NCBI GenBank assembly: GCA_028293765.1
Contig: JAQGOG010000056.1
Span: 1-64,000, forward strand
Direction of reading: 5' to 3'
Origin: Gammaproteobacteria bacterium
GTDB lineage: Bacteria > Pseudomonadota > Gammaproteobacteria > Steroidobacterales > Steroidobacteraceae
DNA length: 64,000 nt
The notes beneath the pieces are model-generated. The model saw only the letters and a program-made list of their open reading frames with translations. It did not search any database and was not told the DNA's origin. The first letter of the stretch is position 1. The number at the start of each line of letters is the position of its first letter. Shown one piece after another: positions 1-4,996 of the stretch. Made by a program: the position numbers and the translations under genes.

Positions 1-112
1 CGCCTGCACCAACGTCGCTCCTGCGCGCCGGACTGGAGCAGCGTTTCAGGGCCTTATCTCGCGTTCAGCGCGCTGGCACGCGCGTTGCAAATTACCTCTT
101 ACTGGAGGACCC

Positions 113-1201
113 ATGAGCGCGCGTGAAGAAATTGTACCGGCTTCGAGCGACGGTCCGGAAACGTCTGCTGCGGGCGACGCCGCGAACGCGGGGGCCGCCC
201 TACCGGCGGCAGGCAGCTCGCGCCAGGTCACTCGTACCGCAGTCATCGACGCCGCGGCCAGAGTCGTCGCGCGCCGTGGCGATCATCGTATGCGATGGTC
301 TGCGATCGCTTTCGAGGTGGGCAACGAGCAGGCCGTGCTCGCCGCCAACTGGTTCCAGGATGTACCGGCGCTCATCGATGAGTGTTACGCGCGTACGGCC
401 CAGGCGTTTGCGGAAAGCCTGCTGCGTGCCGAGACCGCACCGGGCAGCGCCCTCGACAAGGTAGCCGCTTTTCTGGTTGCGGCCCTGGAGCTGCGGCGTG
501 AGCGCGGCTCGCTTCTCTCATTCCGACGAGGTCGGGATCTCCCGACGGCGCTTCAGCGGCGCCTTCATGAATGGGACCAGATGGTTCGCACGCGCCTGAA
601 GAGATTGCTCACGCAGGGAAGGCGCGACGGCTCACTGGCCCTGCGCAACCTCGACAGTGCCTGTGAGTTGATTCTGGCGAGCCTCCAGGTTCCGGACGTG
701 GCGGTGGATGGGCCAGAGCAGCGCATGTGGGACAGCGAGCTCGTCGAGCTGCTGCTTGCAGCACTGTCGGAGCCGCATCCGCCCGAGGACGAGCCCCGCA
801 AGAGTGTTGCGGTGGCCCAAGGCACGTGTCTGTGCGGGACCGTGAGGTACGAAATCGATGGGCCGTTCGAAGTCATGTCGCACTGTCATTGCTCCATGTG
901 CCGCAAGCATCACGGCGCGGCGTTCGCGACCTTCGTGACGGTCTCTCTCAGCAGCTTTCGCTGGGTGGCTGGTGAAGACGCGCTCTCCACTTACCAGTCG
1001 TCGGCCTATGGCAAACGCACGTTCTGCAGCAAGTGCGGTTCGGTGATGCCGGTGGTCGAGTCCGATACCGGGATCGCATTCTGCCCGGCGGGAAACCTGG
1101 ACGGCGAGCTGGGTATTCAGCCGCAGAGTCATCGGTTTGTCGGTTCCAAGGCGTCGTGGCACACGATCACCGACGCTCTCCCCCAACATGAGGAAGTCTG
1201 A
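113..1201 (+). CDS. TetR-like regulator fused to a GFA (CENP-V/S-glutathione-type) zinc domain
   Basis: The 362-residue protein has two halves. After an Ala/Gly-rich leader (1-37), residues 38-215 resemble a TetR-family regulator: a short N-terminal helix-turn-helix region (RTAVIDAAARVVARRG, then a recognition-helix-like stretch ending NWF) and a helical ligand-binding part. Residues 236-355 are a GFA domain with the usual zinc cysteines: CLC at 239-241, CHCSMC at 258-263 and CSKC at 305-308. GFA domains are related to glutathione-dependent formaldehyde-activating enzyme, but most members have no proven reaction. GGAGGA sits 4 bases before the ATG. The stop overlaps the start of a second GFA gene, so the two are probably translated together. 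The recognition helix is not a close match to the family, so DNA binding is inferred. Confidence 0.8.
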   Translation: MSAREEIVPASSDGPETSAAGDAANAGAALPAAGSSRQVTRTAVIDAAARVVARRGDHRMRWSAIAFEVGNEQAVLAANWFQDVPALIDECYARTAQAFAESLLRAETAPGSALDKVAAFLVAALELRRERGSLLSFRRGRDLPTALQRRLHEWDQMVRTRLKRLLTQGRRDGSLALRNLDSACELILASLQVPDVAVDGPEQRMWDSELVELLLAALSEPHPPEDEPRKSVAVAQGTCLCGTVRYEIDGPFEVMSHCHCSMCRKHHGAAFATFVTVSLSSFRWVAGEDALSTYQSSAYGKRTFCSKCGSVMPVVESDTGIAFCPAGNLDGELGIQPQSHRFVGSKASWHTITDALPQHEEV

Positions 1202-1664
1202 AGTGACAGCGCACAGGATCTCATCGCGGCAGCGCCCCGCTGCGTCGTCCAGCAAAGTGGCCGGCGGCAGCTGCCTTTGCGGGGAAGTGGCGTTCGAGCT
1301 CGTCAGGTCGGCCGGGCGCATGATGAATTGCCATTGCGCCCGCTGCCGCCGCGCGCATAGTGCGGCGCATGCTTCGAATATCTTCGTCGACTCCACGAAG
1401 TTTCGCTGGCTCCGCGGCGAGACGCAGGTGTCGAACTACGGCCCGCCCAAGGACTGGCACTTCGGGACGGCGTTCTGTCGGCTTTGCGGAAGTACGCTGC
1501 CCCGGGAAGTGCGGTCGGTCGGTATCGTAGTGGTACCCGCTGGTACGCTGGACAGCGATCCGGGAATGCGTCCGGCCGGCCACGGCTTCGCCGGATCCAA
1601 GGCGGACTGGTTTCCCATCACGGACGATCTGCCGCAGTTCGCAGGCATGCCTCCGGTCGGATAG
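1188..1664 (+). CDS. GFA family (CENP-V/GFA domain) protein
   Basis: This is a stand-alone GFA domain of 158 residues. The zinc ligands expected of the family are visible: CLC at about 29-31, CHCARC at about 48-53 and CRLC near 97-100. I chose the ATG at 1188 rather than the upstream start in the ORF track, because it lies 12 bases before the stop of the TetR-GFA gene and removes a stretch that is only the upstream gene in another frame. The protein is a paralogue of the C-terminal half of its neighbour. A formaldehyde/glutathione role is possible from the family name, but nothing in the sequence fixes the substrate. Confidence 0.82.
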   Translation: MRKSEVTAHRISSRQRPAASSSKVAGGSCLCGEVAFELVRSAGRMMNCHCARCRRAHSAAHASNIFVDSTKFRWLRGETQVSNYGPPKDWHFGTAFCRLCGSTLPREVRSVGIVVVPAGTLDSDPGMRPAGHGFAGSKADWFPITDDLPQFAGMPPVG

Positions 1665-1721: not shown

Positions 1722-2921
1722 ATGTTCGAGCGCCTCGATCGACTTCCCCCCGATCCTATCCTCGGCCTCATGGCCGCGTTCCGTGCTGACGCCGACCCTC
1801 ACAAGGTCGATCTCGGCGTAGGGGTCTACCGTAACGATCAAGGGGAAACGCCCATCCTGCAGGCCGTGAGGCAGGCGGAGCAGGCGATGCTCGGGCGTCA
1901 GACGACGAAGACGTATGTCGCGCCAGCGGGGAATCCGGGCTTCAACCAGGCTCTGGAGCGCTTCGTCCTCGGGGACGAGCATTCCGCGCTCACGGCGGGT
2001 CGTGTGCGCACGGTCCAGGCGCCTGGCGGGTGCGGAGCTCTCCGCCTGGGGGCAGAGCTCATTCGAGCGGCGTCCCCCGAATCCGTCGTTTATGTGAGCA
2101 CGCCTACCTGGGCGAATCATGTCCCACTGCTGTCGGGGTGCGGACTGAAGCTCGAACGCTATCCATATTTCGACCCGGCAACGGGCGGCGTGAAATTCGA
2201 GGCCATGCTCGAGGCGCTCGAGCGCCTTCCGGCGCGCGCGGTCGTGCTGCTACATGCGTCCTGCCACAATCCTACAGGTGCCGATCTGAGCGAGGCGCAA
2301 TGGCGCGAGCTGCTGGGGCTCTTCAAGCGTCGTGGCCTGCTGCCTTTCATCGACATCGCCTACCAGGGGCTCGGTACGGGTGTCGTGGAGGATGCCTTTG
2401 GCATTCGGCTGTTCTGTGCGGAGCTCCCTGAAGTCACCATTGCGGTGTCGTGCTCGAAGAACTTCGGCCTGTACCGGGAGCGTACGGGCGCTTTGCATGT
2501 CATCAACGAGACGTCCGCGACTGCCGATGCGGTTCTGACACAGCTCGTGCGCATCGCACGCAGCATCTACTCGATGCCGCCGGATCATGGCGCGGCCATC
2601 GTGCACGAGATTCTGGCCAGCGAGAATTTGCGCAAGGTGTGGGCGGATGAGGTGGCGGTCATGCGCAAGCGGATACAGGGGCTGCGCCATGAGGCCGTCA
2701 GACATCTGCAGCTGACGTGTCCGCACCGGGATTTCGGCTTCATCGAGCGTCAGCGCGGAATGTTTTCGTACCTCGGCGTCAATGTAGAGCAGGTGCGCGA
2801 GCTGCGCACCCGCCATCATGTCTATATGACGGATGACAGTCGCATCAATATCGCCGGGCTCAGGCGCGAGAACCTCGAATACTTCGCGCAGGCCGTCGCG
2901 CAGGTGCTGACAGCGCGATGA
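1722..2921 (+). CDS. aromatic amino acid / aspartate aminotransferase (class I)
   Basis: This is a fold-type I PLP aminotransferase of 399 residues, the normal length for AspC/TyrB. It begins MFERLDRLPPDPILGLM, the typical start of the family, so I use ATG 1722 and not the GTG at 1707. The cofactor lysine is K246 in SCSKNFGLYRERTG, and HNPTGAD near 182 is the conserved PLP-site loop. It transfers amino groups between 2-oxoglutarate and aspartate, tyrosine or phenylalanine. AspC and TyrB cannot be told apart by eye, so no symbol is given. A TAAACT box at 1674-1679 could be part of its promoter. Its stop overlaps the next start (ATGA). Confidence 0.93.
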   Translation: MFERLDRLPPDPILGLMAAFRADADPHKVDLGVGVYRNDQGETPILQAVRQAEQAMLGRQTTKTYVAPAGNPGFNQALERFVLGDEHSALTAGRVRTVQAPGGCGALRLGAELIRAASPESVVYVSTPTWANHVPLLSGCGLKLERYPYFDPATGGVKFEAMLEALERLPARAVVLLHASCHNPTGADLSEAQWRELLGLFKRRGLLPFIDIAYQGLGTGVVEDAFGIRLFCAELPEVTIAVSCSKNFGLYRERTGALHVINETSATADAVLTQLVRIARSIYSMPPDHGAAIVHEILASENLRKVWADEVAVMRKRIQGLRHEAVRHLQLTCPHRDFGFIERQRGMFSYLGVNVEQVRELRTRHHVYMTDDSRINIAGLRRENLEYFAQAVAQVLTAR

Positions 2922-4996
2922 GTCGAATCTGGGGGGGCGTCGCTATCGCTGTCGCGACGTTTTTGGGAACAGCCATTGTATGGTCCGCCGCTATGCCCGC
3001 CGCCGGGACTCCGGCCGCCGGGCTCCGTGTGGCGGCGGCCGAAATACCAGGTGCGGAGGCTTCCAACGCCGGAGTGAGCGGACCCGTTGTGTCCGCAACG
3101 GATATCCCGCCGGCGCAGGACATAGCGTATCCCGGCACACTCATACTCAAGGTCGATGTCACGGACATCGAACGGCGCCTGTTCAGCGTTCACGAGGTCA
3201 TTCCGGTCAAGCCGGGCCCGTTGATCCTGCTGTATCCGGAGTGGCTGCCCGGCAATCACGCGCCTCGTGGGCCCATCGACGGGCTCGGCGGTCTCCTGAT
3301 CAACGCCAATGGCCGGCGTGTCGAATGGACGCGCGATCCCTTGAACGTTTACGCGTTCCACCTGCAGGTTCCGACCGGGGCCAGCCGGCTCGAGGTGGAG
3401 TTCCAGTTCGCCTCGCCGCTGGTCAGCGGCGAGGGTCGGGCGATGGTCACCCCGGAAATCGTGGGGCTGCAATGGAACACGGTCGTGTTGTATCCGGCGG
3501 GTTACTACGCGAGCCGGATCGTTCTCGCGCCGGAGCTCTCGCTGCCCGAAGGGTGGGACTTCGGTTGCGCCCTGGACGTCGAAGGCCGGCGCGGCAGCAG
3601 AGTGCAGTTCAAGCACTCGACGCTCGAGATGCTCGTGGACTCGCCGTTGTTTGCGGGGCGTTACTTCCGGAGCATCGTCCTCGACCCGGCGCCCGGTGGA
3701 CCAGCGGCTGGCGGGCAGACGGGCGGTATCGCCCTGGGCGGCGCTCCTCAGTCCGGCTCAACGGTGCGGCTCGACATCGTCGCGGATACTCCCGCGAGTT
3801 TCGAGATCAAGCCTGAGCAGATCGCGGCCCACCGTAAGCTCGTGCAGGAGGCCTATGCGCTGTTCGGGGCGCGGCACTTCGGCCATTACGACCTGCTGCT
3901 GGCCCTGAGCGATCACTTCGGCGACATCGGCCTCGAGCACCAGCAGTCGAGCGAGAACCGGCGCCTGCCAGGCTATTTCGTCGATTGGGACAAGGAGGCG
4001 GCGGGCCGCAGCATCCTGCCGCACGAATTCGCGCACTCCTGGAACGGCAAGTTCCGGCGGCCGGCCGGGCTGGCGACGCCCAACTTCAACGTGCCGATGC
4101 AGAACAACCTGCTGTGGGTTTATGAGGGCCTCACCAACTACCTGGAGGGGTTGCTCGCCGCGCGTTCGGGGCTCTGGAGCGCCGATTTCACGCGCCAGGC
4201 ATGGGCATATGTAGCCGCTAACATGGATCGGAATCGTCCGGGCCGGGTCTGGCGCGACATGGAAGATACGACGCACCAGCCCATCGTCACGGCGCGGCGA
4301 CCGCTCTCCTGGGTGTCCTGGCAGCGGACCGAGGACTACTACACGGAAGGAGAGCTCTTGTGGCTCGACGTCGACACGAAGATTCGCGAGCTCAGCGCCG
4401 GCAGGCAGTCCCTTGACGACTTCGCCCGCGGATTTTTCGGCGGCGCCGACGGGAGTCTCGGGCCGGTACCCTATACGTTCGCGGATGTCGTGCATGCGTT
4501 GAACGGCGTTGCTCCCTTCGACTGGGAGAAGTTTCTGACGCAGCGACTGCATTCGCACGGGCCGGGGGCGCCGCTCGATGGCTTGACTCGCGGCGGGTGG
4601 AAGCTCGTCTACACGGACGCGCCTACCGAATACCTGCGCGGCCTCGAGGATCAGCGCAAGGCGGTCGATTTCACGTTCTCACTGGGGTTCAATGTCTCGA
4701 CGCGGGAGTATGGACAGCTCACGGAAGTGCTTTGGGGAGGACCTGGATACGACGCCGGGCTCACGATGGGAACGGCGATCATCGCCGTCAACGGTCATGA
4801 ATACCGCCCCGAGCGCCTGCGCGAAGCGGTCGCGATTGCCAGGAATACGCATAAGCCGATCGAGCTGATCGTGAAGAATCTCGATCGGTATCGCGTGGTG
4901 AGCATCCCTTACTACGAAGGGTTGAAGTACCCGCGACTCGAGAGGGTTGAGAGGAGTGAGGATCGGTTGGCTGCGATCATGAAACCACGGACGTAG
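2918..4996 (+). CDS. exported M61-family metallopeptidase (glycyl aminopeptidase type) with PDZ domain
   Basis: This 692-residue protein starts with a hydrophobic signal-like segment (residues about 6-28), so it should be periplasmic or outer-membrane associated. The zinc motif is HEFAHSW at 369-373, followed by the NGK typical of M61 and by LLWVYEGLTNYLEG, which supplies the third ligand glutamate. The last 130 residues look like a PDZ domain. M61 enzymes release N-terminal glycine, alanine or acidic residues. Two low-complexity stretches stand out: an Ala/Gly/Pro-rich segment after the signal (25-60) and a Gly-rich insertion near 257-282. The ATG overlaps the aminotransferase stop, which suggests co-transcription. 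Confidence 0.9.
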   Translation: MSRIWGGVAIAVATFLGTAIVWSAAMPAAGTPAAGLRVAAAEIPGAEASNAGVSGPVVSATDIPPAQDIAYPGTLILKVDVTDIERRLFSVHEVIPVKPGPLILLYPEWLPGNHAPRGPIDGLGGLLINANGRRVEWTRDPLNVYAFHLQVPTGASRLEVEFQFASPLVSGEGRAMVTPEIVGLQWNTVVLYPAGYYASRIVLAPELSLPEGWDFGCALDVEGRRGSRVQFKHSTLEMLVDSPLFAGRYFRSIVLDPAPGGPAAGGQTGGIALGGAPQSGSTVRLDIVADTPASFEIKPEQIAAHRKLVQEAYALFGARHFGHYDLLLALSDHFGDIGLEHQQSSENRRLPGYFVDWDKEAAGRSILPHEFAHSWNGKFRRPAGLATPNFNVPMQNNLLWVYEGLTNYLEGLLAARSGLWSADFTRQAWAYVAANMDRNRPGRVWRDMEDTTHQPIVTARRPLSWVSWQRTEDYYTEGELLWLDVDTKIRELSAGRQSLDDFARGFFGGADGSLGPVPYTFADVVHALNGVAPFDWEKFLTQRLHSHGPGAPLDGLTRGGWKLVYTDAPTEYLRGLEDQRKAVDFTFSLGFNVSTREYGQLTEVLWGGPGYDAGLTMGTAIIAVNGHEYRPERLREAVAIARNTHKPIELIVKNLDRYRVVSIPYYEGLKYPRLERVERSEDRLAAIMKPRT

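Follow-up and report, generated by a model that had tools for sequence, protein, structure and literature searches.

A TetR-like domain with an eroded helix-turn-helix joined to a GFA domain in Steroidobacteraceae

In the stretch of 64,000 nucleotides analysed here (contig JAQGOG010000056.1 of a Steroidobacteraceae bacterium, hereafter the window), one uninterrupted open reading frame joins a degenerate TetR-like domain to a complete GFA domain (GFA1) and is directly followed by a second GFA gene (GFA2). We favour, with moderate confidence, the reading that a diverged TetR protein is joined here to the front half of a tandem GFA protein and that the product works, without repressor action, as an enzyme or carrier that binds thiols and has an oligomerisation or sensing domain derived from TetR. 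On this view, a TetR-family gene with an aminotransferase gene downstream of it would have fused in frame with the part of a tandem GFA1-GFA2 gene that encodes the first half; in the window, the second half would be made as a separate protein, restarted right after the stop of the fusion.

The fusion gene (113..1201; all features given here lie on the plus strand) encodes 362 amino acids from ATG 113 to the TGA stop at 1199-1201. Direct reading places a ribosome-binding site GGAGG at 104..108, and GGAGG also precedes the start in the fused genes L008 (genome G078) and L009 (genome G005) of the same genus. The product comprises a degenerate TetR helix-turn-helix (HTH; residues 37-85, 221..367), which aligns with canonical TetR paralogues, a TetR_C_24-like C-terminal sensor/dimerisation half (residues 86-222, 368..778), which has counterparts in lone orthologues and in proteins of genus g71, a linker (residues 223-234, 779..814) and the GFA1 domain with seven zinc cysteines (residues 235-362, 815..1198; PF04828, E 1e-22). 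The earlier note had described a degenerate TetR N-terminus joined to a complete GFA domain in one frame, and this is confirmed: the frame is intact, with a TetR-like domain at about residues 37-222 and the GFA domain at 235-362. The window begins at a contig end, as would suit an assembly error or frameshift that joins two genes, but the same fused frame recurs in three further genomes, two from the genus and one from another, and HTH, sensor half, linker and GFA1 all have a dN/dS of 0.00-0.06 between the window and L008. Such an artefact is therefore extremely improbable.

The fusion was found in 3 of the 58 genomes of the window's genus and, in addition, in genome G246 of a second genus of the same family. 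L008 is 91% identical to the window in its best segment, L009 is 79% identical, and the G246 protein shows 62% identity over the TetR part and 58% over GFA1. Against L008, the closest relative, dN/dS was 0.06 in the HTH and 0.02 in both the sensor half and GFA1, while the linker was 100% identical in amino acids at a pS of 0.58; among the fusions of the genus, values of 0.02-0.13 were obtained for the folded parts. By these ratios, mostly between 0.02 and 0.1, the linker and both domains are under purifying selection. In a search with both halves across 369 genomes of the class, joint matches at E 1e-25 came from the window's own genome alone; fusions to an unrelated TetR protein would escape this search. 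The long-frame GFA loci of relatives proved to be inflated frames or to carry a different N-terminal domain, none of them TetR by eye. The literature searched held nothing relevant on TetR-GFA fusions or on TetR proteins without DNA binding, in agreement with the earlier note, which knew of no described TetR-GFA protein. The domain combination is thus genuine and conserved and seems not to have been described before; both kinds of domain in it are known, and here it is restricted to a few genomes of one family.

Profile searches with both halves identified the GFA half readily, but on the window's own sequence the TetR half gave weak matches only. Residues 37-222 alone matched TetR_C_24 with an E-value of 0.024 and BetI with 0.02, all TetR models staying below cut-off, and TetR_N (PF00440; cut-off 24 bits) had no match in the window protein and reached 13.5 bits in one lone orthologue. 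The TetR assignment stands because of other evidence. The orthologue L065 matched TetR_C_24 (PF17932) with E 1.2e-5 and 26.0 bits, 0.4 bit short of the cut-off of 26.4, and a profile of nine orthologue sequences retrieved 25 PDB sequences (top match 3kkd, E 1.8e-5), named transcriptional regulators and many of them of the TetR family. Furthermore, two AlphaFold models, built on shallow alignments and modest in their confidence (mean pLDDT 60 and 65), predicted a TetR-type all-helical fold with an N-terminal three-helix HTH and the helix order of TetR proteins. Foldseek matches of the N-terminal half were almost all TetR structures, with weak E-values, and those of the other half were the GFA structures 3fac, 8ajq and 1x6m. 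The protein resembles the TetR_C_24 group, which includes KstR2 of M. tuberculosis (PDB 4w97, 4w1u), in that its C-terminal half fits PF17932 and KstR2 structures are among the Foldseek matches; it differs in an HTH not recognised by TetR_N, in the lost contact residues, in the attached GFA domain and in having g71 relatives without any HTH.

TetR proteins usually contact DNA and its phosphates through S/T before the recognition helix, a T/S-x-Y motif and K at the start of helix 4. Alignment with canonical TetR paralogues showed that the HTH contact residues of the window protein are replaced and that one residue is inserted before F81. The usual DNA and phosphate contact residues are lost in fused and lone members of the genus alike, whereas Y or H and K are retained in 20 canonical paralogues of the genus, and the lone orthologues carry a glycine and a proline in the recognition-helix region. 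Three genomes of genus g71 (G371-G373; L119, L120, L121) encode the sensor half alone, starting with M[KR]AISPPEL; these proteins are 62-66% identical to the window's sensor half, with a dN/dS of 0.10-0.15, and no HTH was seen upstream of them. An outgroup protein from G217 (45-49% identical) has a borderline HTH (TetR_N 18 bits, cut-off 24). To judge from such comparisons, selection retains the C-terminal bundle and the TetR half has turned from DNA. Fused and lone forms share 84-85% identity in the sensor half but just 45-47% in the HTH, the contact residues are lost, and in another genus the HTH is absent; the protein is therefore most probably not a formaldehyde-responsive repressor but a dimer/ligand scaffold of TetR origin that carries GFA domains.

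Within the fused group, the HTH region is nevertheless under purifying selection (dN/dS 0.06 and 0.10), so an altered DNA-binding role is conceivable: the protein might be a working one-component regulator in which the TetR half binds DNA via a changed recognition helix, GFA1 serves as a zinc/thiol-sensing or ligand-handling part, and the target is its own operon (GFA2 and the aminotransferase). The three helices still predicted for the HTH, and the position of the gene at the head of a possible operon, would fit such a regulator, and with a net charge of -2 the helix 2-3 region does not stand far apart from its counterpart in canonical paralogues. We consider it unlikely, since the typical contact positions are lost in all fused and lone members, glycine and proline stand in the recognition-helix region of the lone orthologues, g71 lacks the HTH entirely though it retains the same neighbour gene, and conservation is distributed in the opposite way to what a repressor would be expected to show. 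The scaffold reading may extend to the whole family, in which a TetR-family protein would have lost DNA binding and its C-terminal bundle would have been reused as a DNA-independent dimer or ligand domain: alone and HTH-less in g71, as a lone form with eroded HTH upstream of the aminotransferase gene, and, in the window, as a scaffold for a thiol-binding enzyme split into GFA1 and GFA2. This wider account is tentative, a serious possibility that we stop a little short of endorsing.

The lone form of the TetR gene occurs in six genomes of the window's genus. In G032, G035 and G036, whose wider neighbourhoods were read, it is flanked by opgGH on one side and the aromatic aminotransferase gene on the other, and in G033 (L060:6649-6843) a decayed remnant, of which just the 3' part is recognisable, occupies that place. 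In the window, the aromatic amino acid aminotransferase gene (1722..2921; PRK09257, E 2e-164) is the conserved downstream neighbour, and a gene for an M61 peptidase with a PDZ domain lies at 2918..4996. In the examined genomes of genera g1 and g71, the aminotransferase gene lies downstream of the TetR gene or of what stands in its place, a C-terminal-only form or a remnant. These genomes include G373, where it follows the HTH-less sensor-half gene, and G374, where the TetR copy is broken. In G010, which lacks a TetR gene, a GFA-GFA protein on one chain is encoded upstream of motBA and the aminotransferase gene. G005 has such a tandem protein as well as the TetR-GFA1 fusion, the two lying about 3 kb apart. 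An M28 peptidase gene lies directly 5' of the tandem GFA gene in G010 (L059:5766-8350), and an M28 peptidase homologue is found about 2 kb upstream of the fusion in G246 (L125:3367-4980).

The pseudogenes in G033 and G374, together with the loss of GFA2 in G005, would suit a chance fusion of adjacent genes, with the GFA activity alone of consequence and the TetR part tolerated as a passenger. We regard this as improbable: the sensor half is 97.8% identical between the window and L008 and, at a dN/dS of 0.02, as constrained as GFA1, the linker is conserved, the fusion is retained in two genera, and g71 keeps the sensor half alone under selection.

Both GFA domains scored far above the PF04828 cut-off of 24.3 bits (GFA1, residues 235-344, 80.7 bits; GFA2, 78.7 bits), and in alignment each has all seven zinc cysteines (CxC, CxCxxC, CxxC). 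They share these features, and sequence or Foldseek matches, with the GFA/CENP-V superfamily (PDB 3fac, 8ajq of PA2722, 1x6m of Gfa), from which GFA1 differs by its junction to a TetR-derived domain and by a score that falls far short of the cut-off for the Gfa equivalog TIGR02820. GFA2 (1203..1664, 153 amino acids; PF04828, E 5e-22; dN/dS 0.13 to L008) is a stand-alone GFA domain, as the earlier note had stated, but the overlap with the fusion gene claimed there probably does not hold. Its start is most likely GTG 1203, one base past the stop, and not ATG 1188, because the GTG and a ribosome-binding site AGGAAG inside the end of the fusion frame (1191..1196) are conserved in L008 and L009 and ATG 1188 is not. 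The two genes therefore abut and are probably translationally coupled. We also considered +1 frameshifting at GTC-TGA, which would give one TetR-GFA1-GFA2 chain; it is not favoured, since the in-gene ribosome site and the GTG restart are conserved in all three genomes.

In a tree of 49 domains, the fused GFA1 domains shared a clade (97/93) with the first domains of the genus's tandem proteins. The GFA1 of G246 and a lone GFA gene from the window's genome also belong to this clade, and the fused domains formed no clade excluding the tandem first domains; the window's GFA2 fell among the second domains (100/99). The best reading of the window locus is thus that of a tandem GFA1-GFA2 module divided between two chains, the first of which bears TetR, and this recasts what the earlier note took for a TetR-GFA protein followed by a second GFA protein. 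Tandem GFA-GFA proteins in single frames were found in G005, G010, alphaproteobacteria, Granulosicoccaceae and deltaproteobacteria. In contrast to such one-chain proteins (e.g. G010 L059:7466-8350, L010-L013), the window's domains are on separate chains, with the stop at 1199-1201 and the restart at 1203, and the first carries TetR. In L009, a 20-codon frame (L009:5983-6045) keeps the conserved start and ends in LPQFAGMPPVA, against LPQFAGMPPVG in the intact gene, and this close-matching end indicates that GFA2 was deleted there. By the sensor-half tree, the four fusions may stem from one event or from several, and fusion, splitting and loss may have followed one another in more than one order.

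In the favoured reading, each chain would bear one zinc-bearing GFA1 domain, and GFA2, made in step by translational coupling, would pair with it, presumably like the halves of a tandem GFA protein or the two subunits of homodimeric Gfa. The pair may bind a low-molecular-weight thiol such as glutathione. Through its C-terminal bundle, the TetR half would serve as a scaffold that forms dimers and possibly binds a ligand, so that dimerisation would bring two GFA1-GFA2 pairs together and a small molecule might influence them. The earlier note had instead proposed a sensor that also modifies or binds its aldehyde or thiol ligand. The name of the GFA domain and its intact zinc cysteines would suit a formaldehyde or aldehyde sensor-detoxifier, but GFA1 reached only 26.3 bits against TIGR02820 (Gfa, S-(hydroxymethyl)glutathione synthase), whose cut-off is 234.55, so a formaldehyde role is unsupported, and no formaldehyde genes were present among the conserved neighbours examined. 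Moreover, catalysis by Gfa itself has been questioned: the Paracoccus protein is a homodimer that was found to bind glutathione but did not speed the formation of S-hydroxymethylglutathione (PMC4682968). Together with the lost HTH contact residues and the related genus that has the C-terminal half only, this makes the proposal very improbable.

The evolutionary rearrangement is unusual but modest, and the greater interest lies in the family-wide drift of a TetR protein from DNA binding. TetR proteins are among the commonest bacterial regulators and are named repressors from sequence. If the wider account is true, a lineage with a conserved sensor half and an eroding, vanishing or re-joined DNA-reading half implies that such names can mislead, and it would offer natural intermediates for a regulator turning into something else. 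The TetR-GFA fusion itself gives a handle on the role of GFA proteins.

Two further GFA loci were observed. The lone divergent GFA gene of the window's genome (G000:C128:45604-45915, L003) sits on a long branch, in one group with the fused GFA1 of G246 (95/82), and no TetR remnant was seen upstream of it. A second GFA fusion family is present in the genus (L061:1759-2919, L093, L094), in which about 260-280 conserved residues without a Pfam match are followed by a GFA domain.
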